Source: a virus
IMG/VR virus record: IMGVR_UViG_3300007520_000640
Location: 1 to 20,402 of that record
Reading direction: 5' to 3' (one strand)
Length of the DNA stretch: 20,402 nt
Shown here: piece after piece, positions 3-17,999 of the stretch
Position numbering within the stretch: the first letter of the stretch is position 1
Layout: every line of letters begins with the position of its first letter
Notes under the pieces: generated by a model
Told to the model about the DNA's origin: nothing
Database searches by the model: none
The model's input: the letters and a program-made list of their open reading frames with translations, nothing else
Translations under genes and position numbers: made by a program

Positions 3-569
3 ATAACAAACGTCGAAATTAACCCAAATGATTTCAGCGAACTATCAAAGATATATAAGGCGAATCCTGATGCAAAAATACTCGACCTTATACCTGCTAC
101 TGATCCGCGGTTATATGAAGAGTCGTTATTTTATTTTGGGAACGAAGATTTCGATATTACCCAATTAATCCTTGATTTAACCGAAACAATGCGCTATCAT
201 GGTGGTATTGGTATATCCGCGATACAGTGTGGAGTACCTGTCAAGCTCTTTCTGGTTGAAACCGGGGGCGAGCAGCCTAAAGTATTCATCAATGCAAAAA
301 TTGTAGATGTATCTGAAAGTACATCAGATTTGGATGAAGGCTGCTTATCATATCCTGGAATGATAGTAAAGGTTTCTCGTCCGAGCATAATAAAGGTTCG
401 ATATACCGACGAGACTGGAGATACAGAAACAGTCAAATATAATGGAATGACAGCGAGAATTGTACAACATGAGTGTGCACATACTCTAGGTCAAACAATT
501 AAAACCGCCGTGTCGCGTCTCAGATGGGAACAGGCTCTTAACAGGAAAAAGAAGCGCAAGAATGGTTGA
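3..569 (+). CDS. def: Peptide deformylase, 5'-truncated by the window edge
   Basis: Removes the N-formyl group from nascent proteins using a catalytic metal. The frame is open from base 3 with no stop, and the first in-frame ATG (189) lies inside the conserved core, so the true start is upstream of the window. About 188 residues are visible. All three family motifs are present: GIGISAIQCG (motif 1, normally GxGLAAxQxG), EGCLS with the metal-binding cysteine (motif 2), and HECAH, the HExxH metal site with the catalytic glutamate (motif 3). The motifs are intact, so the enzyme is probably active. Peptide deformylases are known in several large phages. Its stop overlaps the start of queE by 8 bases, so the two are probably cotranscribed. 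Confidence 0.93.
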   Translation: MTNVEINPNDFSELSKIYKANPDAKILDLIPATDPRLYEESLFYFGNEDFDITQLILDLTETMRYHGGIGISAIQCGVPVKLFLVETGGEQPKVFINAKIVDVSESTSDLDEGCLSYPGMIVKVSRPSIIKVRYTDETGDTETVKYNGMTARIVQHECAHTLGQTIKTAVSRLRWEQALNRKKKRKNG

Positions 570-1482
570 ATTAATTAATAAGGTAAGAGAGAAGCGAACG
601 CCGGAATTTCAATATTCAGAACTATTTGGCAACACGTTTCAAGGTGAAGGTCATTATACAGGCGTTAAAACTGTATGGTATCGCGCCTGGGGATGTAACT
701 TCGAATGTAGAGGCTTCGGTCAAGAGGACCCTACCAGCCCTGAAACGTGGGTGCTCCCATTCGAAGATATAGATGTTGAGCAATATAAGTCAATGGAAGA
801 GCTCCCTGTATTTCATACAGGTTGTGATAGTTCATACTCTTGGGCTCAGAAGTTTAAGCATCTAGCACATAAAGACACTGCGGAAGTGATCGCAAACAAA
901 ATTCTAGATCTACAACCTGGTCGCACATGGGCGCACCCGAAGTCTGGTCAAGAAACACATATGGCATTTACTGGTGGTGAACCAATGATGAGCCAGAGTG
1001 CAATCGCTGCGATTATGGAAGAGTGGGAAAAGCTGGACCAGCTTCCAAAATATGTCACAATTGAAACAAACGGAACCCAAGCTATCCGCGCTCCATTCAA
1101 AGCTATCTTCGAGAGATTACTTAGCAGCGGACAAGTGAAAGAACTCTTTTGGAGTGTATCTCCTAAACTTTATCTATCTGGTGAAGACTGGGAACAAGCA
1201 ATTCAGCCGGATATTCTCGCTGATTACGCAGACTTGTGTAACGCAGGTCAACTAAAATACGTCTGCAACGGAACAGATCGCAACTGGGATGAAGTAGAAG
1301 AGGCGACGGCAATGTATCGGCAAGCTGGCATCGATTGGGATGTTTGGATTATGCCTGTAGGTGCCGACGTAGAAATGCAAGAATCACACCAAGCGGTTAT
1401 ATCTGATCAGGCCCTGGCAAGAGGATATAATGTTGCGGCAAGAGTACATTGCTGGGTTTATGGAAACGTTTTAGGAAAATAA
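562..1482 (+). CDS. queE: 7-carboxy-7-deazaguanine synthase, radical SAM (QueE-like)
   Basis: Radical SAM enzyme converting 6-carboxy-tetrahydropterin to 7-carboxy-7-deazaguanine in preQ0 synthesis. The N-terminus carries FQGEG (residues 26-30), typical of QueE. The iron-sulfur motif is split: C45 and C49 follow the normal CX3C, but the residue at the usual third position is F52. The family's third-Cys context reappears as C88-DSSYSW (88-94), so the cluster would be CX3CX38C with a 36-residue insertion. TGGEP, ETNGT and SVSPK follow in family order. At 306 residues it is longer than typical QueE (about 210-250). Cofactor residues look intact once the insertion is allowed for. It overlaps the deformylase upstream and the next ORF by one base (TAATG). 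Confidence 0.92.
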   Translation: MVELINKVREKRTPEFQYSELFGNTFQGEGHYTGVKTVWYRAWGCNFECRGFGQEDPTSPETWVLPFEDIDVEQYKSMEELPVFHTGCDSSYSWAQKFKHLAHKDTAEVIANKILDLQPGRTWAHPKSGQETHMAFTGGEPMMSQSAIAAIMEEWEKLDQLPKYVTIETNGTQAIRAPFKAIFERLLSSGQVKELFWSVSPKLYLSGEDWEQAIQPDILADYADLCNAGQLKYVCNGTDRNWDEVEEATAMYRQAGIDWDVWIMPVGADVEMQESHQAVISDQALARGYNVAARVHCWVYGNVLGK

Positions 1483-1718
1483 TGAGCTGGACATTTGGAT
1501 CTAATTTACTGAGTCACGTTCGCGATAGCGTTATGACTCTCGATAATACAGAACACGAGGATCTCGTGCACGTCTTTAAATACATTATTGAGGATTTTCG
1601 AAACTTCGATTGTGGTACGATAGATGAATGTGTAGGTGTATCTGAAGCGTTTGACGAAGCCTATAATGAATTGTTGGACGAAGAAAATGAATTAAATTAC
1701 ACGAATAGCATGGATTAA
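1482..1718 (+). CDS. Small acidic protein of unknown function
   Basis: A 78-residue protein starting at the ATG in the TAATG overlap with queE; an earlier in-frame ATG at 1449 lies inside queE and was not used. It begins MSWTFGSNLLSHVRDS and is rich in Asp and Glu, especially in the last 30 residues. No signal peptide, membrane segment or recognisable domain is seen. Translational coupling to queE is likely. I do not recognise the family. Confidence 0.7.
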   Translation: MSWTFGSNLLSHVRDSVMTLDNTEHEDLVHVFKYIIEDFRNFDCGTIDECVGVSEAFDEAYNELLDEENELNYTNSMD

Positions 1719-1739
1719 GCATAAAGAAACTACTTTAAT

Positions 1740-2279
1740 ATGACAACAACCATCAAAACTAAAGTTGTAAACCTCTTCGGAGGCCCGTCTTCTGGTAAGT
1801 CTACAGCTGCAGCAGGTATATTTAACCGTATGAAAGTTCGCGGATGTAATGCTGAACTAATTATGGAAGCAGCGAAAGATCATATCTACGAGGGGCATAC
1901 TAACATTTTAGCGGATCAGCTATATTTGTTAGCACAACAAAACAGACGTCAACAAAGACTACTCGGGCAAGTCGACTATATTATAACAGACAGTCCTCTT
2001 CCGCTTTGCTTAGTTTATAAACCAAAAAACTATTTAAAAACTTTTGACGCTTTGACGTTAGAGTTATTTAACACATATGACAATATCAACTTCTTCTTGA
2101 AGAGAGTAGACAAATTCCAAGCAGAAGGTAGAGTTCACGATAAACCACAATCGATATCATTAGATAGAAGAATCAAAGGTATTCTCGATTGGAGTGAAGA
2201 GTCGTATGAAATTATTCAAGTAGAAACATTTTCAGAAATAGCCATTGATAAGATGGTTGATACATTATTAGAGGGATAA
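1740..2279 (+). CDS. P-loop ATPase/kinase (AAA_28-like)
   Basis: A 179-residue P-loop protein with Walker A GGPSSGKST at residues 14-22 right after a hydrophobic first strand. A second conserved block, YIITDSPLPLCLVYKP, fits a Walker B-like strand followed by a substrate-lid region. Length and layout resemble the AAA_28/NadR-type kinase-like proteins common in large phages; the substrate is unknown. A second, distinct P-loop protein of the same length lies at 7052-7591. The ribosome site is weak (AAAGAAA). It sits in the queE-to-phosphoribosyltransferase run, so a nucleotide substrate is plausible but not shown. Confidence 0.85.
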   Translation: MTTTIKTKVVNLFGGPSSGKSTAAAGIFNRMKVRGCNAELIMEAAKDHIYEGHTNILADQLYLLAQQNRRQQRLLGQVDYIITDSPLPLCLVYKPKNYLKTFDALTLELFNTYDNINFFLKRVDKFQAEGRVHDKPQSISLDRRIKGILDWSEESYEIIQVETFSEIAIDKMVDTLLEG

Positions 2280-2280
2280 A

Positions 2281-2475
2281 ATGAATACCACAAATACACC
2301 AGTAGAGCTATTTTTATTTTTATTAGTACGTGACCACCTACCTATCGGAACGATTAATCAAATACTACTAGATGTTGAAAAAGCACTTAATAACGGTCCA
2401 GTTGATTATATAGGGGATGCCGAACTAATAAGTAAATGGACTGAAATTAAAACTAAACATCTACTAGGTACATAA
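2281..2475 (+). CDS. Small protein of unknown function
   Basis: A 64-residue ORF beginning one base after the preceding stop, with a good ribosome site (GAGGG, five to six bases upstream). The N-terminal third is hydrophobic (VELFLFLLV) but then turns polar, so it is not a clear membrane protein. It is one base from the next gene, so the three genes look cotranscribed. No family recognised. Confidence 0.65.
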   Translation: MNTTNTPVELFLFLLVRDHLPIGTINQILLDVEKALNNGPVDYIGDAELISKWTEIKTKHLLGT

Positions 2476-2476
2476 A

Positions 2477-2938
2477 ATGAATTTAAAATATGGATATCCC
2501 GCCTTCGTGGATGACCTCAAGCATATTGTATGTGCATTAAAAATATCAACATTCCAACCTGATATTATAGTTGGATTAGCCCGTGGTGGATTACCCGCTG
2601 CTGTTTGTCTCTCTCATCGTCTCGATATTGAAATGGAATCTGTAAACTGGCCCCGTGAAGAAAATCTTCGGTCCAGTTGCTGGCACATTGGGGATTACAT
2701 TCAAGAAGGTAAGCAGATATTAATTGTCGATGACATTATCGATTCCGGTAGATCTATCCAATCATTTCTAGACCATCTACAAGAAGGGCAGGTTGGAGAT
2801 TTAAGGCGTGAAAACGTTCGCATCGCGACCCTTCTATGGTATATGGATTCAGACTTATACAAGCCAGATTTTTACGGTACAAAGCTATCGCGCGAACAGC
2901 ACGGCTTCGTTGATTTCTTCTGGGAAGATAAGACTTGA
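2477..2938 (+). CDS. Purine-type phosphoribosyltransferase
   Basis: A 153-residue type I phosphoribosyltransferase that would join a base to PRPP. The PRPP-binding signature is clear: ILIVDDIIDSGRS, with the paired acidic residues and the loop after them. An upstream GLARGGLPAAVCLS matches the RGGL strand-loop of xanthine-guanine phosphoribosyltransferases (Gpt), and the C-terminal FVDFFWE resembles the hood ending FPWE of that family. The likely substrate is guanine, xanthine or hypoxanthine, but a deazapurine cannot be excluded, given neighbours that make 7-deazaguanines. Its stop codon lies inside the -35 box of the promoter for queD. Confidence 0.88.
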   Translation: MNLKYGYPAFVDDLKHIVCALKISTFQPDIIVGLARGGLPAAVCLSHRLDIEMESVNWPREENLRSSCWHIGDYIQEGKQILIVDDIIDSGRSIQSFLDHLQEGQVGDLRRENVRIATLLWYMDSDLYKPDFYGTKLSREQHGFVDFFWEDKT

Positions 2939-2963
2939 CAGATAATGTATTAGAATGTATAAT
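2935..2963 (+). promoter_or_regulatory. Consensus sigma70 promoter for queD-folE
   Basis: A perfect TTGACA, exactly 17 bases, then a perfect TATAAT. The -35 box overlaps the TGA stop of the phosphoribosyltransferase. Transcription would start near 2970, leaving about 30 bases of leader with AAAAGGA before the queD ATG at 3000. A full consensus promoter suggests strong early transcription by host RNA polymerase. Confidence 0.88.
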
Positions 2964-2999
2964 ATACCCACTCACGTTACGACAAAAGGATAAGATAAC

Positions 3000-3473
3000 A
3001 TGGTAAAGAAGTACGTAAGTACTAAAACGTATAACCAGATTGCTCCCGTTGCATATCGCCAATGGCGAGCAGGAACACATTGTGATCAGATTCACGGATA
3101 TGCACTCAGCTTCAAGTTTGAGTTTGAATGTGATGTGCTCGACGAGCGTAACTGGTGTGTAGATTATGGATCACTGCGATCGATTAAGGCTTTGGTAGAA
3201 GACCTTTTTGATCATAAACTCCTGGTAGCTACTGATGACCCGATGCGGGAAGAGCTGCTAAAACTCGGAGAGCTAGGACTTGCGTCTATCACGGAGGTGG
3301 AGAAGACGGGCTGTGAAGGAATCGCGGATTGGCTTTATGAGTATATCAACACCGGCTGGTTAAAGGAAAACGGATACGCTGGACGCTGCTGGTGTTCGCG
3401 CGTCGAAGTAAGAGAAACAGATGCAAATATGGCATACCGTCAAGGACATGCTGAAGACGGAGAATTCGCTTAA
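3000..3473 (+). CDS. queD: 6-carboxy-tetrahydropterin synthase (QueD-like, divergent)
   Basis: PTPS/QueD-family enzyme converting dihydroneopterin triphosphate to 6-carboxy-tetrahydropterin, step 2 of the preQ0 pathway. It is 157 residues (E. coli QueD is about 120). Conserved blocks: catalytic Cys in CDQIHGY (28-34), WCVDYGSL (52-59) matching the family's WxxDFxxL, D71-H72 of the catalytic pair, and the substrate-anchoring Glu in VEVRETDANMAY (E139). The zinc site is unusual: the normal HGH is HGY (Y34), and the upstream zinc His is not in its usual place, though H27 sits next to the catalytic Cys. Stop and folE start overlap in TAATG. The start has a strong ribosome site (AAAAGGA). Confidence 0.88.
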   Translation: MVKKYVSTKTYNQIAPVAYRQWRAGTHCDQIHGYALSFKFEFECDVLDERNWCVDYGSLRSIKALVEDLFDHKLLVATDDPMREELLKLGELGLASITEVEKTGCEGIADWLYEYINTGWLKENGYAGRCWCSRVEVRETDANMAYRQGHAEDGEFA

Positions 3474-4171
3474 TGAGTTTTATTGATGAGTTGAAGCGTC
3501 GTATTGATGTCAGAAATCTACGATCTTTTTCAAACGATAACGTATCAGAGATTTTTGAGAACGAGGAAGAATATTCTAAGTATATCGCCGAACTTACTAC
3601 TCGGTTCGAGCATGTACTTGACGGACTACTAATCGATATCGGAAACGACCCGAATGCGAACGGCACCGGAAAGCGTCTAGCGAAGATGTACGTTAACGAA
3701 ATTATGATGGGTAGATATCATCCAGCACCAGACGTAACTGCATTCCCGAATGACGGTTCACATGGTACGAAGCCGTATTGCGGCATGCTTGTTGTTCGCG
3801 CCGATATTAAGTCGATGTGTTCACATCATCATCAGCAAGTCTTCGGAACTGCATTTATCGGTATTATTCCTGGGAAAAAAGTAATTGGATTATCCAAGTA
3901 TTCTCGTATTGCACACCATTGTGCTCGTCGAGGAACTCTACAGGAAGAGTTAACTGTTGATATTAAGGATGCGATAAGTGCGGCGGCGGAAACTAACGAC
4001 ATTGCTGTATACATACAAGCTCAACACGGATGCTGTATTTTCAGAGGTATCAGTACAAACAACTCTAACACACAAACAACCGTATTAGACGGGCAATTTA
4101 ATCAAGCTGATGTTAAAAAAGAGTTTTTTGATAATATTAGTTTACAATTACGATCGACTGCAGGCATTTAA
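3473..4171 (+). CDS. folE: GTP cyclohydrolase I
   Basis: Converts GTP to dihydroneopterin triphosphate, the entry step to 7-deazaguanine (and folate) synthesis. It is 232 residues, the normal size. Zinc ligands are present: C116 and H119 in CSHHH (116-120), and C187 in QHGCC. The substrate loop IIPGKKVIGLSKYSRIA (131-147) and RRGTLQEELTVDI match the family closely, as does the C-terminal SNTQTTVLDGQF. It is translationally coupled to queD (one-base overlap). Its stop overlaps by three bases the stop of the convergent homing endonuclease gene. Confidence 0.97.
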   Translation: MSFIDELKRRIDVRNLRSFSNDNVSEIFENEEEYSKYIAELTTRFEHVLDGLLIDIGNDPNANGTGKRLAKMYVNEIMMGRYHPAPDVTAFPNDGSHGTKPYCGMLVVRADIKSMCSHHHQQVFGTAFIGIIPGKKVIGLSKYSRIAHHCARRGTLQEELTVDIKDAISAAAETNDIAVYIQAQHGCCIFRGISTNNSNTQTTVLDGQFNQADVKKEFFDNISLQLRSTAGI

Positions 4172-5220
4172 AGTCGTCCAAGCTGTAGGCCACTTCTCTC
4201 AATATTTTCTTGAGTAGACATATAATTTTTGACTCCATCATTAGCCCAAATCTTCCCCTTTACTGGTGACGAGCCAGTTCCTAGGTTCCAACCAGTATCG
4301 AGGTAAGATTTAAGCTCTGATTTCTCAATAGTTTTCCTTTCAGCATTGGTATGAATCCAGATTTTACCTTTAGATTTATTATTAGGATTTTTGAGAATGT
4401 AACCCCCACGTAAGTAAGAGTCTACTTCAGTGACTGGCACATACGTTGAATGATTTGTTGTTACGTTAAACACCCACTTAGACGGTACTCGTTTACCCCT
4501 ACGGGTGCCTATCTGTATCCAACCATCATTTAAAAACAGTTGAACCTGTTCTTTAGGAATACGCTTAGATACTTCAGCTTTAACGACCCGAATAGTATTC
4601 TTTACTGCTGATTTATAATTAGGGCCGCGACCTGGAAGATACCCGCGAGATATAAACACATCTACTTGGGTAATAGGTACAACTACAGATTCTAGTGTTG
4701 TGGAATGATACATGTATTTCATACCTTTAGAAGATTTAGTAGCAGTACGAGTCCAACCTTTCTCAATATAAGTAGGTAGTTCGCTCTCTAAAACTCTCCG
4801 TAAGATATTATTTTTTATAATAAACGTTAAAGACGGATATTCAAAAAGCGTATACCCGATATCTAAATACTCCTGAATTTTATAATCCGGCACCTTGAGT
4901 TTTTTCCCAGTCGAGTGTATAATTTTAATTCTTGTATATTTACCTACTGGAGTAGTCTTGTTTGGTAGTGTCCTATTAATGCATTCTGTAAACATAATAT
5001 GGTTAGCAATAAGGATATACTCAGCATTATATGCTTGATCTCTATCATTAAATGTCGCCACGATAGTTTTAGTAAAAACTATCCCATCGCTAATCTTATC
5101 CTTTACATATGATGAAGACGATAAATACTTTATATCAAATTCTGGCGATCGCCTGCATCCACGTGAACCGTAGTAGTACGTGTTGTCATCAAAAACAATC
5201 TTATATGTATAATAAAACAT
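4168..5220 (-). CDS. GIY-YIG homing endonuclease with tandem C-terminal repeats
   Basis: A 350-residue protein whose N-terminus carries a GIY-YIG nuclease core: YYTYKIVF (3-10), YYYGSRG (15-21), and a later ECINRTLPN. The rest is about seven degenerate units of 30-40 residues (near 95, 131, 168, 208, 248, 286 and 323). Each has a K-x-W/I strand, a short basic turn, a V/I-E/D-x-Y/F-L helix and a GW/GY turn; these are probably sequence-specific DNA-binding modules. It is on the strand opposite its neighbours and its stop meets the folE stop. Such free-standing endonucleases usually cut a related locus lacking them. The ribosome site is weak. Confidence 0.85.
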   Translation of the reverse strand: MFYYTYKIVFDDNTYYYGSRGCRRSPEFDIKYLSSSSYVKDKISDGIVFTKTIVATFNDRDQAYNAEYILIANHIMFTECINRTLPNKTTPVGKYTRIKIIHSTGKKLKVPDYKIQEYLDIGYTLFEYPSLTFIIKNNILRRVLESELPTYIEKGWTRTATKSSKGMKYMYHSTTLESVVVPITQVDVFISRGYLPGRGPNYKSAVKNTIRVVKAEVSKRIPKEQVQLFLNDGWIQIGTRRGKRVPSKWVFNVTTNHSTYVPVTEVDSYLRGGYILKNPNNKSKGKIWIHTNAERKTIEKSELKSYLDTGWNLGTGSSPVKGKIWANDGVKNYMSTQENIERSGLQLGRL

Positions 5221-5268
5221 TTTTTATTTCTCTTATGTTGATGTATACAGTTATTTATGGAGACCATA

Positions 5269-5847
5269 ATGGATAAGCTTATATTATGCGACGTGGATGG
5301 AGTTGTTCTCAATTATAATTCGGCGTTCGAAAAATGGATGTCGAAGAGTGGAATCGATGTAATCCTACACGACGAGTACGACTTTACCAAAAAGTACGGA
5401 ATCAGCAACGATATGGTGCATTCCTACTGCCAGGACTTTACTTCCTCACTAAACATACAAAACCTGGAATTCATTGAAGATTCCTTTAAGTATATCAATA
5501 AGTTATATGAGCAAAAAGGCTATAAGTTCCATTTTATCACTAGTATATCAAAAGAACCCCCAGCTGTATGGGCTCGAACTAAGAATCTACTACAACAAAT
5601 ATCATTAGATGCGATACATGAAGTTACATGCTTAGGATTCTTAGAAGACAAGTATCAATACCTATATGACAACTATAACGGTTCGAATAACTGGTGGATC
5701 GAAGATTCTGTACCAAACTTTATATCAGGAGAAAAGGTAGGGTTGCGATCTTTATTAATTGACCATCCCTACAATAGAGACTATAATACACCTAATCGCG
5801 TAACTTCGTGGAAAGAGATATATGACAGAATCAATAGCGACGAATAA
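5269..5847 (+). CDS. HAD-superfamily phosphatase (5'-nucleotidase-like)
   Basis: A 192-residue HAD hydrolase. The first motif is LCDVDGVVLN with nucleophile and acid/base aspartates D8 and D10; motif II is FITSIS; the metal-binding acidic motif is WIEDSVPN. This layout resembles the 5'(3')-deoxyribonucleotidase group, which dephosphorylates nucleoside monophosphates; other small phosphates are possible. I chose the ATG at 5269 over 5257 because GGAG sits six bases before it and the protein then starts directly at the first strand. It overlaps the next gene by 26 bases. Confidence 0.85.
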   Translation: MDKLILCDVDGVVLNYNSAFEKWMSKSGIDVILHDEYDFTKKYGISNDMVHSYCQDFTSSLNIQNLEFIEDSFKYINKLYEQKGYKFHFITSISKEPPAVWARTKNLLQQISLDAIHEVTCLGFLEDKYQYLYDNYNGSNNWWIEDSVPNFISGEKVGLRSLLIDHPYNRDYNTPNRVTSWKEIYDRINSDE

Positions 5848-6373
5848 GATCTGGATTGCGCTGTTTAGTCAATCTGGTTCTGAACTCGAAGCAGTTAGCA
5901 GTAGACTCGGTAAGACACCTGACCGTGTTTTTACAAACAACAAAAACTACGATCTATCTAGTACTCCATTCCCAGCTTGTGTGTATATGAAGAGTACCGA
6001 TATATTTGATCGGCTTCGTTATATGCTCATTCGACCTGATCATGTTATCATAACACTACATGGATTTCTCCGGATTCTTCCACCTGATATTTGTGAGATG
6101 TTTGAAATATATAATGGGCACCCAGGTGACATTATTACTTACCCCGAACTAAGGGGGAAAGATCCCCAACAAAAAGCATTAGACCTCAAACATAAAACAG
6201 CAAGAGCTGTTATTCATAGAGTAACACCTACTGTAGATGATGGTCATATCGTAGCAACGACACCATTGATACCTATTTCTGATACACTGCAAGACGTGAA
6301 TGTATTAATTAATCTTCTAAAAGCAGATTCAGTTCTTGCTTGGGAAAAACTACTAAAGGAAAAACTATCTTGA
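5822..6373 (+). CDS. PurN/formyltransferase-fold protein
   Basis: A 183-residue member of the 10-formyl-tetrahydrofolate-dependent formyltransferase fold. The catalytic set is visible: N98 and H100 in YNGHPGDI (equivalent to NIHPS in PurN and methionyl-tRNA formyltransferase) and the conserved Asp in TVDDGHI (D139). The block HGFLRILPP (80-88) matches the cofactor-side AGFMRILSP. The N-terminal strand WIALFSQSGS fits the family. It may formylate a small amine rather than the purine precursor GAR, since no other purine pathway gene is seen here. Its position in the 7-deazaguanine cluster makes preQ1 or a preQ1-containing base a candidate substrate (inference). The ribosome site GGAAAGAGA sits inside the HAD gene. 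Confidence 0.85.
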   Translation: MTESIATNKIWIALFSQSGSELEAVSSRLGKTPDRVFTNNKNYDLSSTPFPACVYMKSTDIFDRLRYMLIRPDHVIITLHGFLRILPPDICEMFEIYNGHPGDIITYPELRGKDPQQKALDLKHKTARAVIHRVTPTVDDGHIVATTPLIPISDTLQDVNVLINLLKADSVLAWEKLLKEKLS

Positions 6374-7012
6374 ACACCGATCAAAGTGCCAACGGTACAT
6401 AGCACTACTTCGCCCTGTTTTATTACAATGAGGACATATAAGTTCAGGTCGCGAGCTCCTATCTGCGGATAGTCGCATCTTTTGTTTTGTATCCTCAGAG
6501 GCCTTTGTACCCAAACGAGCATTACGGATACGTTCTTTAGTTGCATCAGAGGATTTATATCCTTTTCTAGACCACGACTTAGTTATCCCCCGTATTTGAG
6601 AAATCTTTTCACGAGCATGCTTAAAGGTATCTCTACCTTTTAATATATGTACCCATTTACCTGATATAATATTTGGGTGATTACAAGTAACAACACCGAT
6701 AACTTCCCCAGTCGTAGCATCTTTCACAGTTATAATACCCGATTTACCACCTTTACCTCCTAGTTTAAGATTATAGCAGTTAGGGTCAATAACCTCAGTT
6801 AGAGTAACAATCTCAGCTTCTTTTTGATATGCTTCCTCAGCAGTTTTAAATGTAAATAAAGTTTCCCGTTTGAAGTTTTTATACCCGTGGATTCGTACGG
6901 CACGTTTAAAATAGGTTCCGGAGCCCAGGTAAGACTTTCGCGTATTAAGTCTGTGAACACCGTAGTAGAATTTATTATCGATAGTGTTTGTTGTTTTATA
7001 TACAATATACAT
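6365..7012 (-). CDS. GIY-YIG homing endonuclease with C2HC zinc finger
   Basis: A 215-residue homing endonuclease. The start at 7012 has AAGG upstream and places the GIY-YIG core at the very N-terminus (MYIVYKTTN, then FYYGVHRL and the SYLGSG loop); the longer reading from 7081 would overlap the next gene. NUMOD3-like segments (KERIRNARLG) lie near residue 165-185. The C-terminus has a zinc finger CPHC-X12-H-X3-C. Opposite in strand to its neighbours; its stop overlaps the formyltransferase stop by nine bases. It is probably a mobile intron-less element inserted between gene ends. Confidence 0.88.
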   Translation of the reverse strand: MYIVYKTTNTIDNKFYYGVHRLNTRKSYLGSGTYFKRAVRIHGYKNFKRETLFTFKTAEEAYQKEAEIVTLTEVIDPNCYNLKLGGKGGKSGIITVKDATTGEVIGVVTCNHPNIISGKWVHILKGRDTFKHAREKISQIRGITKSWSRKGYKSSDATKERIRNARLGTKASEDTKQKMRLSADRSSRPELICPHCNKTGRSSAMYRWHFDRCSR

Positions 7013-7051
7013 AAATACCTTACGAATTAGAATAACAGGACATTTATATTT

Positions 7052-7591
7052 ATGGCAAAAATCGGTATTACTGGAAGCCAATCTTGTGGTAAAACAACTC
7101 TACTAAACGACCTTGCTGAGTTGGAAATTTTTAAAGGCTATACTATATGCAACGAAGTGACGCGTTCACTCGCTGCTAAAGGCTTTACAATCAACGAAGG
7201 CGGGAACGATGCAACGCAACGTGCCATTATGGATGTACACAACGACAACCTACAGCATTCGGATATGTTGACTGATCGAACAGCGATCGACGGCCTCGTA
7301 TATACGATCTGGCTCTGGAAGCAGGGGAATGTAACTACATCTACTGTACAGGTTATTAGCCATGTAGCTGATGCTCTAATACCAGATTATGATATCATTT
7401 TCTATGTAAAACCAGAATTCGATATTGAGGATGACGGTGTTAGATCTGCAAGTGTTACATTCAGAGATGAAATTGCAACGTTATTCGAAGAAGTAATCGC
7501 CAAGAAAAACCTACAACTTGTCCCGCTAACTGGTTCACGTGAAGAGCGTGTTCAACAAGTTCTCACCGCAGTAAAGGACAAACAGCAATAA
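7052..7591 (+). CDS. P-loop nucleotide kinase-like ATPase
   Basis: A 179-residue P-loop protein starting MAKIGITGSQSCGKTT with Walker A at residues 8-16. A DRTAIDGLVYTIW block after residue 70 fits the lid/Walker B region of AAA_28/NadR-like kinases; the substrate is unknown. TAATG overlap with the DpdA-like gene implies translational coupling, so a role in supplying or handling the modified base or its nucleotide is possible but unproven. Confidence 0.86.
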   Translation: MAKIGITGSQSCGKTTLLNDLAELEIFKGYTICNEVTRSLAAKGFTINEGGNDATQRAIMDVHNDNLQHSDMLTDRTAIDGLVYTIWLWKQGNVTTSTVQVISHVADALIPDYDIIFYVKPEFDIEDDGVRSASVTFRDEIATLFEEVIAKKNLQLVPLTGSREERVQQVLTAVKDKQQ

Positions 7592-8391
7592 TGAAGACAT
7601 TCCACGAAGCTCCTATTTATTATATGGATCTTGTTGACCGCCTGACAGATGGTACATATTTTCTTGTGCACCTGTTTGAAGATAATGAAGATTATCTAGA
7701 ACGAGCTATGTCAGTCTCAAGAGACCGGCATGTAATACTCGACAATTCTGTATTTGAACTTGAGACTGAATTCGATTCTGAGCGTTTTGCTTATTGGATC
7801 GATCTAACTCGTCCAACGGAATACATTATCCCTGACAAACTCGAAGATCGAGATAAGACAATCCAGAATGTTATTGATTGGAACAATGAGTTTAAATCTA
7901 ACGTTCCCGGAAAGTCTATTGGGGTTATTCAAGGAAAGTCATATCAGGAAATCGTTGACTGCTATAAGGCTATTGAACCCCTAGTAGATAAAGTCGCTAT
8001 ATCATTCGACTATAGTTGCTATAAACAAATCGCGTACGCCTGGGGGGGTATAGATAAGCTAGAGTTATGGATGCATGGACGCCGTGCGCTATTATCTAGG
8101 TTATTGCAAGATGGTATTATCAATACAAATAAGCCACATCACCTCCTCGGCGGGTCATTAGTTAATGAATGGAGATCATATATCGGATACTCGTGGATTG
8201 AATCTGTTGATACGTCCAGCCCGATAATGTGGGCTATGGAAAAGAAGCTTTATACTGGAGAAGTATATAAGCCAGCTGCAAAACTCTTTACTCTAATCGA
8301 TTTTGAACCATCTTCAATCGACGAAGACTTAGATATCACTAACAAGATGGTACAAAATATCGCAACATTTAGAAAGACGTGTAATGGCTAA
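7591..8391 (+). CDS. dpdA: TGT/DpdA-like DNA 7-deazaguanine transglycosylase
   Basis: A 266-residue protein related to tRNA-guanine transglycosylase, the fold of DpdA enzymes that exchange guanine for a 7-deazaguanine base in DNA. TGT landmarks appear in order: ILDNSVFE (49-56, like TDSGGFQ, with the base-recognising D51), GVIQG (111-115, like the family's GIVQGG), HLLGGS (184-189, like HYLMGVG) and SVDTSSP (205-211, like FDCVxPT, giving D207 as the candidate nucleophile). It is shorter than bacterial TGT (about 375) and lacks the C-terminal zinc cysteine cluster. Placement between pathway genes, coupled to the kinase and overlapping queF by eight bases, supports a DNA rather than tRNA target. 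The subfamily is not resolved. Confidence 0.82.
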   Translation: MKTFHEAPIYYMDLVDRLTDGTYFLVHLFEDNEDYLERAMSVSRDRHVILDNSVFELETEFDSERFAYWIDLTRPTEYIIPDKLEDRDKTIQNVIDWNNEFKSNVPGKSIGVIQGKSYQEIVDCYKAIEPLVDKVAISFDYSCYKQIAYAWGGIDKLELWMHGRRALLSRLLQDGIINTNKPHHLLGGSLVNEWRSYIGYSWIESVDTSSPIMWAMEKKLYTGEVYKPAAKLFTLIDFEPSSIDEDLDITNKMVQNIATFRKTCNG

Positions 8392-9271
8392 GAGACCTTC
8401 AACAGTAAAAATCGAACAAGAAACTATAACAGATAAAGTAGAAGGCACTCTACTTGGGCAACGAGTATCTGCTCCAACAACCTATTCGCCGGAAATTCTA
8501 GTACGAGTACCTCGTGAAGAAAATCGTAAGGATTATGGTATTACTACTACAGAAATGCACGGGTACGATGACTGGTATGCGTATGAGTGTTCAACAGTTA
8601 CAACCAAAGGCGTACCAGTATACTTCGGACTTATTATTCGATATGATTCTATGTCGCAGTTTATCGTTGAATCAAAATCGTTAAAGCTCTATCTAAACTC
8701 ATTCAATATGGAATCACTTGCAGATACAGTTAAGGGTGCCATGCAAGAGTATCTACGCCGCGTAGAAGTAGATCTAGCGCATCTGCTCGAAACAACTATT
8801 CAACTAGTAGTGTTTGAAGAAGGTAGTACCTTTAGTGCTATTACAGATGCAGACGATCTAGGTAAAATTGTAGACCTTGATAATATCGAGATTACAGAGT
8901 ATAATGAGAGTCCAGATATACTCCAAGTGTATGATACACCAACAGACGTATTTTGGAAGTTCTCTGGTATTCGTTCAAACTGCAAAATTACAAACCAACC
9001 TGATTGGGCGACCGCGTATATCCGCATTAGAGGAAATAAAGTACCGGTACCAGAAGCGTTGGTTAAGTACCTAGTATCATTTAGAAACGAAAGCCACTTC
9101 CACGAGGAATGTTGTGAAATGATCTTCAAGCGTCTGTTTGATATCTTACAACCCGATGTACTTTGGGTTCGCCTGAACTACACCCGCCGCGGTGGAATTG
9201 ACATCAACCCAACCCGATTCACTACGAATGTGAAGGATACAGTGCCTAGCAGCAGAACGGTATATCAATAA
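8384..9271 (+). CDS. queF: NADPH-dependent preQ0 reductase, long type
   Basis: Reduces the nitrile of preQ0 to the aminomethyl group of preQ1 with NADPH. It is 295 residues, matching the two-domain E. coli-type QueF (about 280). The NADPH/QueF signature ESKSLKLYLNSFN is at 96-108. Catalytic Cys C200 is in RSNCKITNQPDW, with D207 as the acid. FHEEC (239-243) supplies the substrate His/Glu, and YTRRGGIDINP (266-276) closes the site. All key residues are present, so reductase activity is expected. Adjacent genes overlap on both sides. This makes preQ1, not just preQ0, the predicted end product of the core pathway. Confidence 0.96.
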   Translation: MAKRPSTVKIEQETITDKVEGTLLGQRVSAPTTYSPEILVRVPREENRKDYGITTTEMHGYDDWYAYECSTVTTKGVPVYFGLIIRYDSMSQFIVESKSLKLYLNSFNMESLADTVKGAMQEYLRRVEVDLAHLLETTIQLVVFEEGSTFSAITDADDLGKIVDLDNIEITEYNESPDILQVYDTPTDVFWKFSGIRSNCKITNQPDWATAYIRIRGNKVPVPEALVKYLVSFRNESHFHEECCEMIFKRLFDILQPDVLWVRLNYTRRGGIDINPTRFTTNVKDTVPSSRTVYQ

Positions 9272-9519
9272 TGGCTACAACAGAAGACAAGATCAGACCA
9301 AAGCATTATCCAGAAGGCCCTATGGAGCCTATTAACATTATAGATTTTTATAATCTAAACTTTAACGCTGGTAATGTGATCAAGTATGCGCTTCGCTCAG
9401 GGCTAAAATCTGGTGAAGAACCAGTAGACGATTGGGGTAAAGCAGCCTACTACGCCACTCGTGAGTTTAAACGTCTTAAGGCTCTCAAGGATGCGATTAA
9501 TGACAAGTTACCTGGATAG
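9271..9519 (+). CDS. DUF3310 (SaV-like) protein
   Basis: An 82-residue protein with the pattern PKHYPEGPMEPINIIDFYNLNF followed after a short stretch by GNVIKYALRSGLK and a helical KAAYYATREFKRLK. This matches the DUF3310 family found widely in phages; its biochemical role is not established as far as I know. Start and stop overlap neighbours (one base with queF; 20 bases with queC), so it is embedded in the operon. Confidence 0.82.
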   Translation: MATTEDKIRPKHYPEGPMEPINIIDFYNLNFNAGNVIKYALRSGLKSGEEPVDDWGKAAYYATREFKRLKALKDAINDKLPG

Positions 9520-10237
9520 ATTACCTGATACTTCTAAAGGTGCTGTTGTAGTTTTATCTGGAGGACTGGATTCGACTATCGTTATGCGACTATGTGTTGA
9601 AAAGTATGGTGCGGATAATGTTCGAGCCGTTACTTTTGACTATGGTCAGAAACAACGAGTGGAAATTGAACGAGCAGCCGCATCAACTACTAAGCTTGGT
9701 GTCGTACATAAAATATTTGACTTATCTATACTTAACGAAATAAGTCAAGGGTTTAGTGCAAATGTTGACGCTGATATTGAGATGCCTACAATTGAAGATG
9801 TTCTCGGGGATCCACGACCTCCCACATACGTTCCAAATCGCAATATGATTTTAATGTCGTTATGTGCTGCTTATGCAGAAACACAAGACATTAATACTAT
9901 CGTAATGGGATTACAAGTACACGACGAATATGGGTACCATGACACTACACAAAAGTTTGTCGACAAAATAAACTCAGCGTTATCTGAAAATCGTAACATC
10001 AAAGTTAAAGTGTTATGTCCCTTCGTTGATCTTTCAAAGTTAGATGAGCTAAACCTATTAAATGAACTCGACGGCAATCTCGAACTACTTAAAGATACCA
10101 TCACGTGTTACAATCCTGATGTATTAGGTAGATCGTGTGGTGTGGGGAACCCTACAAGGGATTGTCCTTCATGTTCTGAACGATTAGCAGCTTTTGCTAA
10201 ATTTGGAGTTAAAGATCCAATTGAGTATCAGAGATAA
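9500..10237 (+). CDS. queC: 7-cyano-7-deazaguanine synthase
   Basis: ATP- and ammonia-dependent enzyme converting 7-carboxy-7-deazaguanine to preQ0. It is about 245 residues. The PP-loop SGGLDST is at 20-26, FDYGQ at 46-50, VPNRN at 111-115, and four zinc cysteines are at 203, 213, 222 and 225. The C-terminal spacing TCY...CG...DCPSC is looser than in E. coli, with an insertion between the second and third Cys. The start at 9500 has AAGGA eight bases upstream; in-frame ATGs at 9461 and 9491 would extend the protein into DUF3310 without added conserved sequence. The gene's end overlaps the next ORF. Confidence 0.95.
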   Translation: MTSYLDRLPDTSKGAVVVLSGGLDSTIVMRLCVEKYGADNVRAVTFDYGQKQRVEIERAAASTTKLGVVHKIFDLSILNEISQGFSANVDADIEMPTIEDVLGDPRPPTYVPNRNMILMSLCAAYAETQDINTIVMGLQVHDEYGYHDTTQKFVDKINSALSENRNIKVKVLCPFVDLSKLDELNLLNELDGNLELLKDTITCYNPDVLGRSCGVGNPTRDCPSCSERLAAFAKFGVKDPIEYQR

Positions 10238-10889
10238 ACAACGCTTTAATTACGCGTGCAATAATACTTTTGAGCAGTTTCGTGCACCTGATGGATTTTT
10301 TCATATAGTATATGCTACTATACATCATCCGACAGGAAAATTTTACTATGGTAAACATTCTACAAAAAACTACTACGATGGGTATTTTGGTTCAGGTACA
10401 TTACTTAAACATGCGGTTAACAAATATGGCATAAATCAGTTTTATCGAAAGACCTTAGGTTGGTTTAATGATACAAAATCTATGATGCAATATGAACAAG
10501 AGCTATTAGATCGTGCCGTTGGTTTAAAATTATGCTATAATATATCACGAACCGCTAGTGGTGGAAACACCGGCAATTATGAAAACCGTATATGTATAAT
10601 TACCAACGAGCAAAAGCGAAAGATATCTGAAGCTAATACTGGAAGAAAACGTCCAGACGTATCGAAACGTTTATCATTATCAGATAATGGGTTTAGTGAT
10701 TATTGGGTTGGTCGAACAAGAACGGCTGAAGATAAAGAGCGCAAGAGTGCTAAAGCAAAATTAAATATCGCTTCAGGAGTAAACCCATTCGCCCAAAAGA
10801 TACAATGTCCTCATTGCGATAAGCAAGTAGATAGAGGAAATGCTAATCGATGGCATTTTAATAAATGTAAATTTAAAAAGGAACAATAA
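10221..10889 (+). CDS. GIY-YIG homing endonuclease, non-ATG start
   Basis: A GIY-YIG endonuclease with HIVYATIHH and FYYGKHS (YIG part), a YFGSGTLLKHA loop, NUMOD3-like segments (KRKISEANTGRKRP) and a C-terminal zinc finger CPHC-X12-H-X3-C like that of the 6365-7012 gene. No in-frame ATG or GTG precedes the nuclease core. The only candidates are TTG codons at 10194, 10203 and 10221, all inside the end of queC; I list the last, with GGAG 13 bases upstream. Translation may depend on queC reinitiation, or the 5' end may be decayed. Same strand as neighbours, unlike the other two. The start is uncertain. Confidence 0.78.
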   Translation: MSIRDKQRFNYACNNTFEQFRAPDGFFHIVYATIHHPTGKFYYGKHSTKNYYDGYFGSGTLLKHAVNKYGINQFYRKTLGWFNDTKSMMQYEQELLDRAVGLKLCYNISRTASGGNTGNYENRICIITNEQKRKISEANTGRKRPDVSKRLSLSDNGFSDYWVGRTRTAEDKERKSAKAKLNIASGVNPFAQKIQCPHCDKQVDRGNANRWHFNKCKFKKEQ

Positions 10890-10890
10890 A

Positions 10891-11079
10891 ATGATTATAG
10901 CAGGAAAAATAAACTCAGAGTATACCGGGACGATTGTGTATCATTCCGCATCAGGTACACATATCAAAAGTGTCAATGAGGTAGTTACAACACTTGTCAA
11001 TAAATATCCATATGCTAGCGTAATAGGAATTCACGGCAACCGCGAATGTGACGAGATTGAGTTCTTAAACATAACCTAA
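10891..11079 (+). CDS. Small protein of unknown function
   Basis: A 62-residue ORF with a good ribosome site (AAAAAGGAA, about eight bases upstream) just after the endonuclease stop. The ATG at 10891 was used because an earlier in-frame ATG (10840) lies inside the endonuclease. It starts MIIAGKINSEYTGTIVYHSA and shows alternating beta-type hydrophobics. It ends in a TAATG overlap with the amidotransferase gene, suggesting coupling. No family recognised. Confidence 0.65.
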   Translation: MIIAGKINSEYTGTIVYHSASGTHIKSVNEVVTTLVNKYPYASVIGIHGNRECDEIEFLNIT

Positions 11080-11711
11080 TGTGCTCAATAATTGCGTCTT
11101 TTTCAGCTGAAAAGTTTAAAGAACTATATACACTCAATGCGTATAGGGGAACTCTCACGAGTTCGTTTACTGTGCTTGATGAAGACTCAGAGGTAGTAAC
11201 TCTAAACAGATTCGATGACCCTGATAAAATGTTCAAGGTAATCGAATCTTCTATCTTTGACGGAGACACAGGTTGTTACTTTGTAGGACATAGCCAAGCC
11301 CCCACAACCGCGAACTCAGGCATCCATCCAGCCGAAGAAGGCGCCGCACTACTCTGGCATAACGGTATAGTTAAAGAGTCAGATATAACAGCTTGGAATA
11401 CGAGACTCAATACAAACTTTGTATGGGACACAGAATTAATTCTACACCTCTACAACCTGTATGGGTTTTCGATTCTATCTTCTATAGATGGTTCGTTCGC
11501 CTGTATTATGCATGAACACAACAATTTGTTTGTTTTTCGTAACGCGCTCGCTCCATTATTCTATGACAAACAACTAAATATATCGTCCACGAAGTTCGTC
11601 GGTGCAAAACCGCTACCGGCAGATACTGTGTTTAAGATTAACATACATACTCGTGAGATCACAGACTGGAACATCCCATTCATAACAAAAAATAATCCAT
11701 ATTCAATATAG
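11079..11711 (+). CDS. Class II glutamine amidotransferase domain protein
   Basis: A 210-residue Ntn-type glutaminase domain with nothing fused to it. After removal of Met1 the N-terminal Cys2 (MCSIIASF) would be the nucleophile. Family motifs follow: AYRG (21-24), GHSQAPT (70-76), LWHNG (92-96), WDTELILHLYNLYG, and SSIDGSFA with the LAPLFY strand near the C-terminus. These match the glutaminase domain of asparagine synthase and PurF-type enzymes, which hydrolyse glutamine to ammonia for a partner. A GAT domain fused to QueC makes archaeosine-type bases in archaea and some phages; here queC is a separate nearby gene, so a trans partnership is plausible (inference). Confidence 0.85.
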   Translation: MCSIIASFSAEKFKELYTLNAYRGTLTSSFTVLDEDSEVVTLNRFDDPDKMFKVIESSIFDGDTGCYFVGHSQAPTTANSGIHPAEEGAALLWHNGIVKESDITAWNTRLNTNFVWDTELILHLYNLYGFSILSSIDGSFACIMHEHNNLFVFRNALAPLFYDKQLNISSTKFVGAKPLPADTVFKINIHTREITDWNIPFITKNNPYSI

Positions 11712-14006: not shown

Positions 14007-14040
14007 AAAAAAGAAGGATTTTAATAGATCCTTCTTTTTT
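14007..14040. terminator. Bidirectional intrinsic terminator
   Basis: A perfect 13-bp inverted repeat: AAAAAAGAAGGAT (14007-14019) pairs with ATCCTTCTTTTTT (14028-14040), leaving an 8-base loop. Run of T on the right for plus-strand transcripts and, by symmetry, on the left for minus-strand ones. It lies between converging transcripts. The minus-strand gene's stop codon (14021-14023) sits in the loop. Confidence 0.88.
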
Positions 14041-15526
14041 TAACTGCGGAGGCAGCTGAAAGTTTAGTTTCAATTGCCTCCATCGACTTGGCATGGTCGT
14101 GGCCGAAATGCTCATTATACTCACCTTGTTCAGCTGGGGCTGCGAACCCGTATTCGGATTGTTTGCTATATTTATGTTTAATATGGTCCTCTTTTACTCG
14201 ATGTGTTAAAATATGATCAAAGACTTTTTTATCATTCGTTCGCCGCACAACGGCCCCTAGTACTCTATAGTCTAGGTCGTTTTTCAAAATATCATGATGC
14301 TTACCCTGTCGGGCCAGGGCAGCTCGTACATTGCTGTTCGGGTGGCGTGCGTATTCTGTGGTATCAGTAGGTTCTGTAAACGTTACAATTTTATGAGCAT
14401 CCCAGTTGTTAAAACTATGAGCATTTGGATCACGCAACATTTGGTGTTTTATTTGATCGGAACCGTACGCTATTAATCCCTGCATATGCCCTGTATTATT
14501 ATTACCGTGAGGTAAATGTACCAACATCTTTTGATGTAACTCATGGGTACCGTGTTGTGCTAAGTTACTACCTATCCCGTAATTCATACCAGCTTTTTTA
14601 TTAATGAAATGATCAACTATCATATGCCGTTGCGACTCATTTCCGTATTTGGAAATATGCTGTATAACAGCCTCTTTCCGTTCGGCGACGGCATGGCCGC
14701 TTGTAGCGAATACATCACCATATGCGTGTTCTACTCCTCGTAAATGACGCTTTACCATATCGTCTGTAATTTTTGGAGCAATAACTGATGATTCTAAATC
14801 TCCATCGTGGTACGATCCAGCTGCTTTATGATACAGCTGTTCTTCTTTTAGCGGAAAATGTTCCGCCGCCCACCCGTGAACTGTATGCTCGAACGATGAA
14901 GCAGATGTTCCATATTGCGAATCATCTGGACGAAGAATGTGATGTGTTTTATCTTCATTGCTATATGGCTTCAAAGCAATTCTAGCAACGGGGTTCTTAA
15001 CGTCATCATCCCCCTTTTGAGTTAGATATGCTACGTGTGTTCCATTTTTTAGTTCTTTGTGTAGATAATGTTTATGTTCCCCGTCCACCATACTCATACA
15101 GGATGTCCATCCACGGTTCGTTGACATGCCCGCTACATCATATGGATGCCGTGAAATTACAACTTGTAGGTTGCCGTGTAGTTTAGCCGCTGCTCTAGCG
15201 GGGTCTGTATTGAAGTGGTGTGCAAGGCTAGGGTGTGCGTTCGTTTGTACCAGCGCTTTACCGAGCTTCATAATACGCTTATATTTGTCTTTTACATACC
15301 CACCAGCATAGTCGTGAACTTCTATTCCGTGTGTGTCGAAGTGGTTTTTGATAAGGTCAGGAGTACGTATATTTGTATCAGCGGGATCGTCTAGCGGAAT
15401 TGTGATACGGTCATGCCCTGCTGGAATTACATGCTTAGATATGTCGACCGCGTTCGCAGTCTTCTTCCAACTATTAACGTGTTTCTTTTGCGTTGCGGTT
15501 AGATCTTCTACGATTATGTTGGTCAT
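14021..15526 (-). CDS. Large His-rich protein of unknown function
   Basis: A 501-residue reverse-strand protein. I used the ATG at 15526 because AAGGA sits six bases upstream; a 13-residue longer reading begins at 15565. It is strikingly rich in His, with many HH or HxH pairs. A conserved-looking centre reads SRHPYDVAGMSTNRGWTSCMSM (residues about 129-150), and the C-terminal half looks like short helical repeats (HPNSNVRAALARQG). No signal peptide or membrane segment. It may be a late/virion protein (it is on the opposite strand and has a T4-late-like box upstream), but I do not recognise a function. Confidence 0.85.
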   Translation of the reverse strand: MTNIIVEDLTATQKKHVNSWKKTANAVDISKHVIPAGHDRITIPLDDPADTNIRTPDLIKNHFDTHGIEVHDYAGGYVKDKYKRIMKLGKALVQTNAHPSLAHHFNTDPARAAAKLHGNLQVVISRHPYDVAGMSTNRGWTSCMSMVDGEHKHYLHKELKNGTHVAYLTQKGDDDVKNPVARIALKPYSNEDKTHHILRPDDSQYGTSASSFEHTVHGWAAEHFPLKEEQLYHKAAGSYHDGDLESSVIAPKITDDMVKRHLRGVEHAYGDVFATSGHAVAERKEAVIQHISKYGNESQRHMIVDHFINKKAGMNYGIGSNLAQHGTHELHQKMLVHLPHGNNNTGHMQGLIAYGSDQIKHQMLRDPNAHSFNNWDAHKIVTFTEPTDTTEYARHPNSNVRAALARQGKHHDILKNDLDYRVLGAVVRRTNDKKVFDHILTHRVKEDHIKHKYSKQSEYGFAAPAEQGEYNEHFGHDHAKSMEAIETKLSAASAVKKRRIY

Positions 15527-15542
15527 GATTATCCTTTTTATA

Positions 15543-15550
15543 TATTTATG
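15543..15550 (-). promoter_or_regulatory. T4-late-promoter-like box
   Basis: On the minus strand this reads CATAAATA, one base off the T4 late consensus TATAAATA, 16 bases before the start codon at 15526. A gp45-like clamp in the window makes a T4-style late system plausible, but the match is only short. Confidence 0.35.
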
Positions 15551-15552
15551 GC

Positions 15553-15581
15553 TTGCATTGATCACGGAATGCCGCTATAAA
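15553..15581 (+). promoter_or_regulatory. Sigma70-like promoter for the 15606 gene
   Basis: TTGCAT, 17 bases, TATAAA. The end of the -10 box is 25 bases from the ATG at 15606, the same distance as at 16274 and 17947. The start near 15588 leaves the GAGGA ribosome site in the transcript. Confidence 0.75.
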
Positions 15582-17198: not shown

Positions 17199-17275
17199 TA
17201 GGTCATTAGCTCAGTTGGGAGAGCGCTGGACTCTTAATCCGGATGTCCTCGGTTCGAACCCGAGATGACCTACCA
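17199..17275 (+). tRNA. tRNA-Lys (anticodon CTT)
   Basis: Full cloverleaf: acceptor TAGGTCA/TGACCTA, D-arm with GTTGGGAG, anticodon stem CTGGA/TCCGG around loop CTCTTAA (anticodon CTT at the usual position, T33 present), T-arm CTCGG/CCGAG with TTCGAAC. It encodes CCA. Reads AAG. Confidence 0.95.
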
Positions 17276-17281
17276 AAATAA

Positions 17282-17366
17282 CGGCCTATGTCAGAATGGT
17301 TATTGAACTCCGCTCATAACGGAGCGTCGCAAGACACTGTAGGTTCGAATCCTACTGGGCCGACCA
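17282..17366 (+). tRNA. Class II tRNA with CAT anticodon (identity unclear)
   Basis: 85 bases with encoded CCA and A73. Acceptor CGGCCTA/TGGGCCG begins with a C1-G72 pair. D-arm TCAG/TTGA, anticodon stem CTCCG/CGGAG around CTCATAA, T-arm GTAGG/CCTAC. Between anticodon and T arms lies a 14-base variable arm that folds (GTC-GCAA-GAC), typical of tRNA-Leu, Ser or Tyr. Yet the anticodon is CAT, which would read AUG, or AUA if modified to lysidine. Real Met and Ile2 tRNAs have short variable loops. The charged amino acid is therefore uncertain; A73 and length (same as Leu TAA below) fit leucine best (inference). Confidence 0.88.
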
Positions 17367-17387
17367 TTTTTTATAATGAGGGATACC

Positions 17388-17567
17388 ATGAAATATACAC
17401 ATAAAATCGTATCGGACTCGTTTAAGTACTTAACTTATATTGAACAAAAACTCGACGAATTGAGTGGCGACGGCTGGGAGGTGTTTCAAGTTGTTCGCGG
17501 GAAACCTAGCTTACACAGCGACCTCTATCCTGTAGAAATTTATTGTAGACGGAAGCTACCCCATTAA
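17388..17567 (+). CDS. DUF4177-like small protein
   Basis: A 59-residue protein. The start at 17388 has GAGGG upstream. The sequence THKIVSDSFKYL, then LDELSGDGWEVFQVV and EIYCRRKL resembles the short DUF4177-type pattern (strand, helix, GWE, strand); function of that family is unknown. It lies between two tRNA genes. Moderate similarity only. Confidence 0.62.
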   Translation: MKYTHKIVSDSFKYLTYIEQKLDELSGDGWEVFQVVRGKPSLHSDLYPVEIYCRRKLPH

Positions 17568-17573
17568 TAATAT

Positions 17574-17658: not shown

Positions 17659-17670
17659 AAGATAAAGAAT

Positions 17671-17841: not shown

Positions 17842-17854
17842 AATACTTAATTAT

Positions 17855-17937: not shown

Positions 17938-17946
17938 TTTTAACAG

Positions 17947-17975: not shown

Positions 17976-17999
17976 TAGTCATCAGATGGAGAGAGCAAC

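Follow-up and report, generated by a model that had tools for sequence, protein, structure and literature searches.

The viral record IMGVR_UViG_3300007520_000640 (IMG/VR) is a fragment of an uncultured phage, 20,402 bases long with a GC content of approximately 41%; the whole of it was analyzed and is referred to here as the window. It carries an operon in which genes for FolE, QueD, QueE, QueC, a two-domain QueF and a DpdA-type DNA guanine transglycosylase are accompanied by genes for a PurN-like formyltransferase, a P-loop kinase and a 6-oxopurine phosphoribosyltransferase, with a class II glutamine amidotransferase nearby. The operon probably builds N-formyl-preQ1 and puts it into the viral DNA, which would hide the DNA from bacterial restriction enzymes. 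A first-pass annotation had placed the genes for the conversion of guanosine triphosphate (GTP) to preQ1, together with a transglycosylase-like protein, between positions 562 and 10237. All are found there, the pathway enzymes by Pfam and PHROG matches and the transglycosylase by structural modeling, and the presence of a GTP-to-preQ1 pathway beside a DNA-type guanine transglycosylase supports the proposal of a DNA-modification cluster. The kinase, phosphoribosyltransferase, amidotransferase and formyltransferase had no part in that earlier proposal.

The genes of the pathway are all present in the window and are mostly translationally coupled, with neighbors overlapping or abutting at the junctions between the AAA kinase and DpdA (-1), DpdA and QueF (-8), QueF and DUF3310 (-1), and QueD and FolE (-1). 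The operon is interrupted, as had been described, by two open reading frames (ORFs) of GIY-YIG type on the minus strand (Table 1). Chance grouping is excluded because the same genes recur, with conserved order, in well over 100 other viral contigs; the window has an order of its own, formyltransferase, kinase, DpdA, QueF. When the entire window was searched against GenBank phages for near-identical DNA, none matched. IMGVR_UViG_3300007519_000207 is a fragment of a near-identical phage, with a DpdA that is 99% identical to that of the window. No host is named here because only three contigs of metagenome-assembled genomes matched in a single scan of genome contigs.

Table 1. Features of the operon and its surroundings, in window coordinates
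Feature	Position	Strand	Basis or remark
Peptide deformylase	3-569		Overlaps QueE by 8 bases
QueE-like radical S-adenosylmethionine enzyme (7-carboxy-7-deazaguanine (CDG) synthase)	562-1482	+	PHROG 2076, E 4e-52
Second AAA_28 P-loop kinase paralogue	1740-2279	+	AAA_28, 6.4e-11
6-Oxopurine (guanine/xanthine type) phosphoribosyltransferase	2477-2938	+	Pfam Pribosyltran, 5.7e-14
QueD-like protein (6-pyruvoyl/6-carboxytetrahydropterin synthase family)	3000-3473	+	Pfam PTPS, 3.5e-16; PHROG 2389, 3e-37
FolE, GTP cyclohydrolase I	3473-4171	+	Pfam, 1.5e-36; CSHH and HGC motifs kept
Putative homing endonuclease of GIY-YIG type, within the operon	4168-5220	-	Sequence and position; without Pfam match
NT5C-like HAD 5'-nucleotidase	5257-5847	+	Pfam NT5C, 3.4e-5, slightly short of the cut-off
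PurN-like formyltransferase, predicted preQ1 N-formylation (DpdN-like)	5822-6373	+	PF00551 family, conserved residues
Putative homing endonuclease of GIY-YIG type, separating formyltransferase from kinase	6365-7081	-	Sequence and position
P-loop nucleos(t)ide kinase (AAA_28; NadR-kinase/deoxynucleoside kinase/thymidylate kinase fold)	7052-7591	+	AAA_28, 9.7e-15
DpdA-type DNA guanine transglycosylase, 266 residues	7591-8391	+	Predicted fold, conserved residues, relatedness
Two-domain QueF, preQ0 reductase	8384-9271	+	QueF_N, 8e-22; QueF, 1.3e-22
QueC-like preQ0 synthase	9461-10237 (probable start 9491-9500)	+	Pfam QueC, 1.1e-49
Third GIY-YIG-type endonuclease ORF	10194-10889		Follows the operon
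Class II glutamine amidotransferase, N-terminal Cys2	11079-11711	+	GATase_6, 3.3e-7

The transglycosylase and the preQ1 pathway

The AlphaFold2 model of the 266-residue protein, built from the aligned sequences of 50 viral relatives, has a predicted local distance difference test score (pLDDT) of 93.6 and a predicted template modeling (TM) score of 0.91. In a Foldseek search with this model, every one of the top 50 PDB matches is a tRNA-guanine transglycosylase (TGT; best E-value 1.9e-8, probability 1.00), so that the earlier identification of the protein as a transglycosylase withstood the comparison that could have overturned it. The named top match in a viral structure library is M4SLA5 of Cellulophaga phage phiST (TM-score 0.82); the phiST gene CGPG_00065, which has the size expected for M4SLA5, belongs to PHROG 20335, and the window protein also matches this family. 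The nearest proteins by sequence are the annotated DpdA of Flavobacterium phage immuto (43.5% identity) and then proteins of Campylobacter phages (33%), and the window protein groups with the transglycosylases of immuto, Campylobacter phage CPt10 and phiST. Residues Asp51, Asp82, Gln114 and Asp207, candidates for the catalytic and guanine-binding positions, are invariant in 50 DpdA sequences. Asp207 aligns, with a weak E-value, with the Asp of the HLLG..SIDSTTP sequence in the solved bacterial DpdA 7ui4. A PDB profile search with the DpdA alignment gave weak and mostly chance matches, among them 7ui4 at an E-value of 0.7, and 4 of the 50 relatives have weak matches to the TGT family PF01702. 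The CxCxxC zinc motif that is typical of tRNA TGTs was looked for in the window protein and is not present. We designate the protein DpdA-like because of its fold, its context and its relatedness to an annotated DpdA.

These features bear on whether the genes serve tRNA rather than DNA, by supplying the host TGT with preQ1 for queuosine and better translation. The phage tRNAs include a tRNA-Tyr with the queuosine-type anticodon GTA, as such a role might lead one to expect, but the operon itself supplies a transglycosylase, one of phage DNA type and without CxCxxC, and formyl-preQ1 is not an intermediate of queuosine synthesis. We consider this the least probable of the readings discussed here, and a very improbable one.

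In QueE, a long spacer separates the second and third of the cluster cysteines, Cys45, Cys49 and Cys88, each of which is at least 90% conserved among 28 relatives of the same QueE type. The QueE of phage nt-1, which makes 7-deazaguanines (PMC6884629), is of this type and 43% identical. The QueD-like protein carries a variant CxxxHGY motif. Key residues of FolE, QueF and QueC had been described as intact, which holds for the first two and only in part for the third. Besides the FolE motifs listed in Table 1, QueF has ESKSLKLY at position 96, in agreement with the motif E(S/L)K(S/A)hK(L/Y)(Y/F/W) for binding of reduced nicotinamide adenine dinucleotide phosphate (NADPH), and the catalytic Cys in SNC at position 198; both the motif and the Cys are conserved among 97 relatives. 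The score of QueF lies below the TIGR03138 equivalog cut-off (225 versus 293 bits). The archaeosine-type QueF-L lacks the NADPH-binding signature of the reductase, and because the window QueF has this signature, a reductase yielding preQ1 is the better reading.

QueC scores above the TIGR00364 cut-off (158.6 versus 150.3) and retains SGGxDS and VPxRN, but it has YHDT for YPDC, YGQKQRVE for YxQxHxxE, and a zinc motif C-x9-C-x8-C-x2-C as compared with the published C-x8-C-x2-C-x2-C. Its second and third zinc cysteines are separated by six additional residues, VGNPTR, an insertion that the near-identical phage L004 shares and the other relatives lack. Relatives of the window type have YWDT, or YFDT and similar sequences, and mostly keep CGxCPSC. 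The QueC proteins of loci L023, L024, L031, L034, L057, L060 and L065, a subgroup from related clusters, have lost all four zinc cysteines (SYKP...SDYKSASSVER) and keep YPDC and SGGMDS. A class II glutamine amidotransferase, with a Cys2 that is conserved among relatives, is the usual neighbor of QueC of the YHDT/YWDT type, and the pairing recurs in Vibrio KVP40-type phages and in Pseudomonas pf16. Because of this habitual proximity, it is plausible that the two proteins constitute a split glutamine-dependent QueC (Gat-QueC), in which the amidotransferase may be the ammonia donor for QueC.

The formyltransferase and the predicted base

All 60 aligned relatives of the formyltransferase match PF00551 (best E-value 2.4e-32), the window protein itself being slightly short of the Formyl_trans_N cut-off, and a search of the PDB with the family profile returned PurN structures (1.1e-19). 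Residues Asn98, His100 and Asp139 are invariant in the 60 relatives and align with the catalytic Asn, His and Asp of PurN. The loop S-Q-T-G-S-E aligns with the SGxGSN loop of PurN, which binds the substrate phosphate, and position 21 is Glu in every one of the 60 sequences where PurN has Asn.

The distribution of the gene was followed in two IMG/VR scans with DpdA alignments, from each of which the best 80 loci were taken; DpdA, rather than the formyltransferase, was the basis for choosing them. The two sets were pooled, DpdA was clustered at 90% identity, and loci with 4 kb or more of downstream sequence, 72 in all, were kept. QueF and the formyltransferase occur together in 61 of these, neither occurs in 8, the formyltransferase alone in 1 and QueF alone in 2 (Fisher p = 3e-8), counts that are phylogenetically non-independent. 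The link between the two genes holds across differing gene orders. In the first set, the formyltransferase is present in 74 of the 80 loci, and the exact order DpdA-formyltransferase-kinase-QueF in 57 of these 80 nearest loci; the 63 with at least 4 kb downstream have QueF in all cases, the formyltransferase in 58 and the kinase in 55. QueF without the formyltransferase is seen in L176, where the formyltransferase slot holds no decorating gene, and in L028, which has a replacement cassette. Each scan gave at least hundreds of related transglycosylase stretches, and the pathway is thus common among uncultured phages.

Because the formyltransferase of the operon co-occurs with QueF across the dereplicated DpdA loci, N-formyl-preQ1 is more likely to be the end product than plain preQ1. 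The first-pass annotation had predicted a preQ1-type base; the NADPH signature of QueF upholds preQ1 against preQ0, and the formyltransferase shifts the predicted base from preQ1 to its N-formyl derivative. Alternatively, the cluster could end at preQ1, inserted by DpdA, with the formyltransferase an unrelated PurN of purine synthesis, a common phage auxiliary gene. Cyanophages carry PurN (PHROG 9240, a weak match), and L176, arranged as DpdA-kinase-QueF-QueC, lacks a formyltransferase between DpdA and QueF. However, the formyltransferase and QueF form a nearly constant pair, and loci without QueF are without the formyltransferase too; the formyltransferase lies inside the DpdA-QueF block, its substrate loop has exchanged the Asn of PurN for Glu, and the window protein falls far short of the PurN equivalog TIGR00639 (30.8 versus 150.1 bits). 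We therefore regard an independent PurN as unlikely.

Our preferred reading, to which we assign a good probability, is that of a lytic-type phage DNA-hypermodification operon that acts as follows. (i) FolE, QueD, QueE and QueC, with the glutamine amidotransferase as the likely source of ammonia, would convert GTP to preQ0. (ii) QueF would reduce preQ0 to preQ1. (iii) The DpdA-type transglycosylase would put the deazaguanine base in place of guanine in phage DNA that is already complete. (iv) The PurN-like enzyme, with 10-formyl-tetrahydrofolate, would formylate the aminomethyl nitrogen of the base, in its free form or once inserted. The product would be 2'-deoxy-7-(formylamino)methyl-7-deazaguanine, and this modified guanine would shield the phage DNA against host restriction; phages with 7-deazaguanines resist restriction (PMC6884629). 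Extensive replacement of guanine is possible in the window phage because, according to a passage in PMC8713573 that cites Crippen 2019, Campylobacter phages of related genera replace guanosine with deoxyinosine or deazaguanosine.

Several observations weigh against this reading. The window DpdA itself has no match in Pfam or NCBIfam, the QueD-like protein does not reach the QueD equivalog cut-off of NCBIfam, and QueC differs from the catalytic signature in the literature at YPDC and in its zinc spacing. The miss of the PurN cut-off by the formyltransferase counts here also, as does the shared ancestry of the loci counted.

In L027, L028 and L062, which are near-identical to one another in this region and represent one lineage only, a cassette sits between DpdA and the kinase. 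It comprises an ORF of GIY-YIG type that carries a NUMOD3 motif, together with two proteins at 3327-5221 in L027, 6918-8812 in L028 and 5528-7422 in L062. One of these, of 508 residues, joins an FkbH (HAD) domain (above the TIGR01686 cut-off) to a GNAT domain at the C terminus; the other is a VOC protein of 124 residues that resembles methylmalonyl-CoA epimerase. This arrangement suggests that the position of the formyltransferase is a slot for decoration of the preQ1 amine, and the FkbH/GNAT and VOC proteins may provide an alternative acyl decoration. Such a swap of formyl for acyl in one lineage would point toward decorations not yet described.

Kinase, phosphoribosyltransferase and possible guanine salvage

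The kinase model (AlphaFold2, pLDDT 94.3) and profile searches, with Foldseek, indicate resemblance to NadR ribosylnicotinamide kinase, deoxynucleoside kinases and thymidylate kinases, a fold that fits several substrates. The kinase adjoins DpdA in many lineages, even where QueF and the formyltransferase are lacking, as in Campylobacter phages CPt10 and CC_R7 and in 6 of the 8 dereplicated loci without both, and it is absent from 10 of the 61 loci that have both. It is common, but not obligatory, in DpdA loci.

With the family profile of the phosphoribosyltransferase, the best PDB matches are purine phosphoribosyltransferases (2.6e-28), and Escherichia coli XGPRT is matched at 6e-16; the single window sequence gave mixed matches to phosphoribosyltransferase subfamilies in NCBIfam. 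Of the 52 dereplicated loci for which both flanks are available, 23 have the gene. A tblastn search with the window protein found seven GenBank phage records: five of phiST type, Synechococcus phage BUCT-ZZ01, and MT835497. Phage phiST encodes FolE, QueE and QueD, and its phosphoribosyltransferase adjoins a deoxynucleoside monophosphate kinase (PHROG 139). The link between this gene and deazaguanine synthesis is not absolute because the scanned part of MT835497 shows no genes of deazaguanine synthesis. In BUCT-ZZ01 (L230, 11986-12447), the guanine-type phosphoribosyltransferase lies between QueE and QueD, and two large uncharacterized proteins after FolE could include a transglycosylase.

The kinase and the phosphoribosyltransferase could also be taken to make a 7-deaza nucleotide for the polymerase, with DpdA in a secondary role. 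Both genes are conserved in the operon, and for Campylobacter phages an earlier proposal had invoked a route through a dGTP analogue (PMC6884629). A TGT-fold protein with a conserved presumptive active site is nevertheless constant in every locus, in a collection selected on DpdA, and over half of the complete loci lack the phosphoribosyltransferase; a nucleotide-level route is therefore improbable, only slightly less so than a role in queuosine synthesis.

Beside base exchange by DpdA, the two genes suggest a loop that salvages the guanine freed by the exchange. One guanine would be expelled by DpdA for each deazaguanine inserted, the phosphoribosyltransferase would convert it to guanosine monophosphate (GMP), the DpdA-linked kinase would phosphorylate GMP, and the resulting GTP would feed FolE for the next modified base. 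The combination of this closed cycle with an exchangeable preQ1-amine slot, filled mostly for formylation and in one lineage for FkbH/GNAT acylation, is put forward tentatively and strikes us as rather doubtful. In the literature collection that was searched, no paper was found that joins DpdA with guanine salvage. The loop, if true, predicts activity of the phosphoribosyltransferase and kinase on guanine and on GMP or dGMP, and the pair offers a testable answer to the fate of guanine expelled after replication.

Related systems and other features of the window

Cui et al. 2023 reportedly described fdPreQ1, in which preQ1 made by QueF is formylated by DpdN and inserted by DpdA3; that description is not known to include the kinase, the phosphoribosyltransferase or the cassette. 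By comparison with DpdN and DpdA3, the window would be a further example of an already known fdPreQ1-type pathway. Flavobacterium phage vB_FspM_immuto_2-6A (immuto; NC_055915) resembles it in having QueD, QueE, the phosphoribosyltransferase, FolE, DpdA, the formyltransferase, the P-loop kinase and QueF in one run, and the two formyltransferases are 42.5% identical. In the window, by contrast, DpdA follows the kinase, homing endonucleases have been added, QueC and the amidotransferase are nearby, and QueE is of a different type (28% identical).

Streptococcus phage Dp-1 and Halovirus HVTV-1 share with the window a QueF-type reductase and have DNA with dPreQ1 (PMC6884629); the window DpdA is of a different type, and the window also encodes a formyltransferase. 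Campylobacter phages CPt10/CP220 and CC_R7 have a related transglycosylase beside a P-loop kinase but, unlike the window, no QueF or formyltransferase was found near DpdA. Vibrio phages of the KVP40/nt-1 type have the same types of QueE and QueC, with QueC beside a class II amidotransferase; in contrast to the window, nt-1 relies on DpdA2 together with an ArcS amidotransferase, and the bases it makes are dG+, dPreQ0 and dADG (PMC6884629). In Bacillus phage BSTP12, a protein annotated as NadR (L147, 4896-5684) matches the DpdA profile (E-value 6e-24) at the end of a FolE/QueD/QueC cluster and is probably a misannotated transglycosylase.

A HAD gene similar to the NT5C-like gene of the window precedes DpdA in many relatives, and the second AAA_28 kinase paralogue is rare, with one other locus matched. 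The peptide deformylase accompanies QueE in some relatives only, 12 of 52 complete loci; its candidacy as a deformylase of the modified base was set aside, since most formyltransferase loci are without it. Elsewhere, the window encodes a gp45-type clamp and, on the minus strand at 14021-15565, a 514-residue protein that is unassigned to a family and has weak PHROG matches to function-unknown entries only. Eight tRNA genes (Lys, Met, Leu twice, Tyr, Gln, Phe and Ile) are scattered between small ORFs at 17200-20275.

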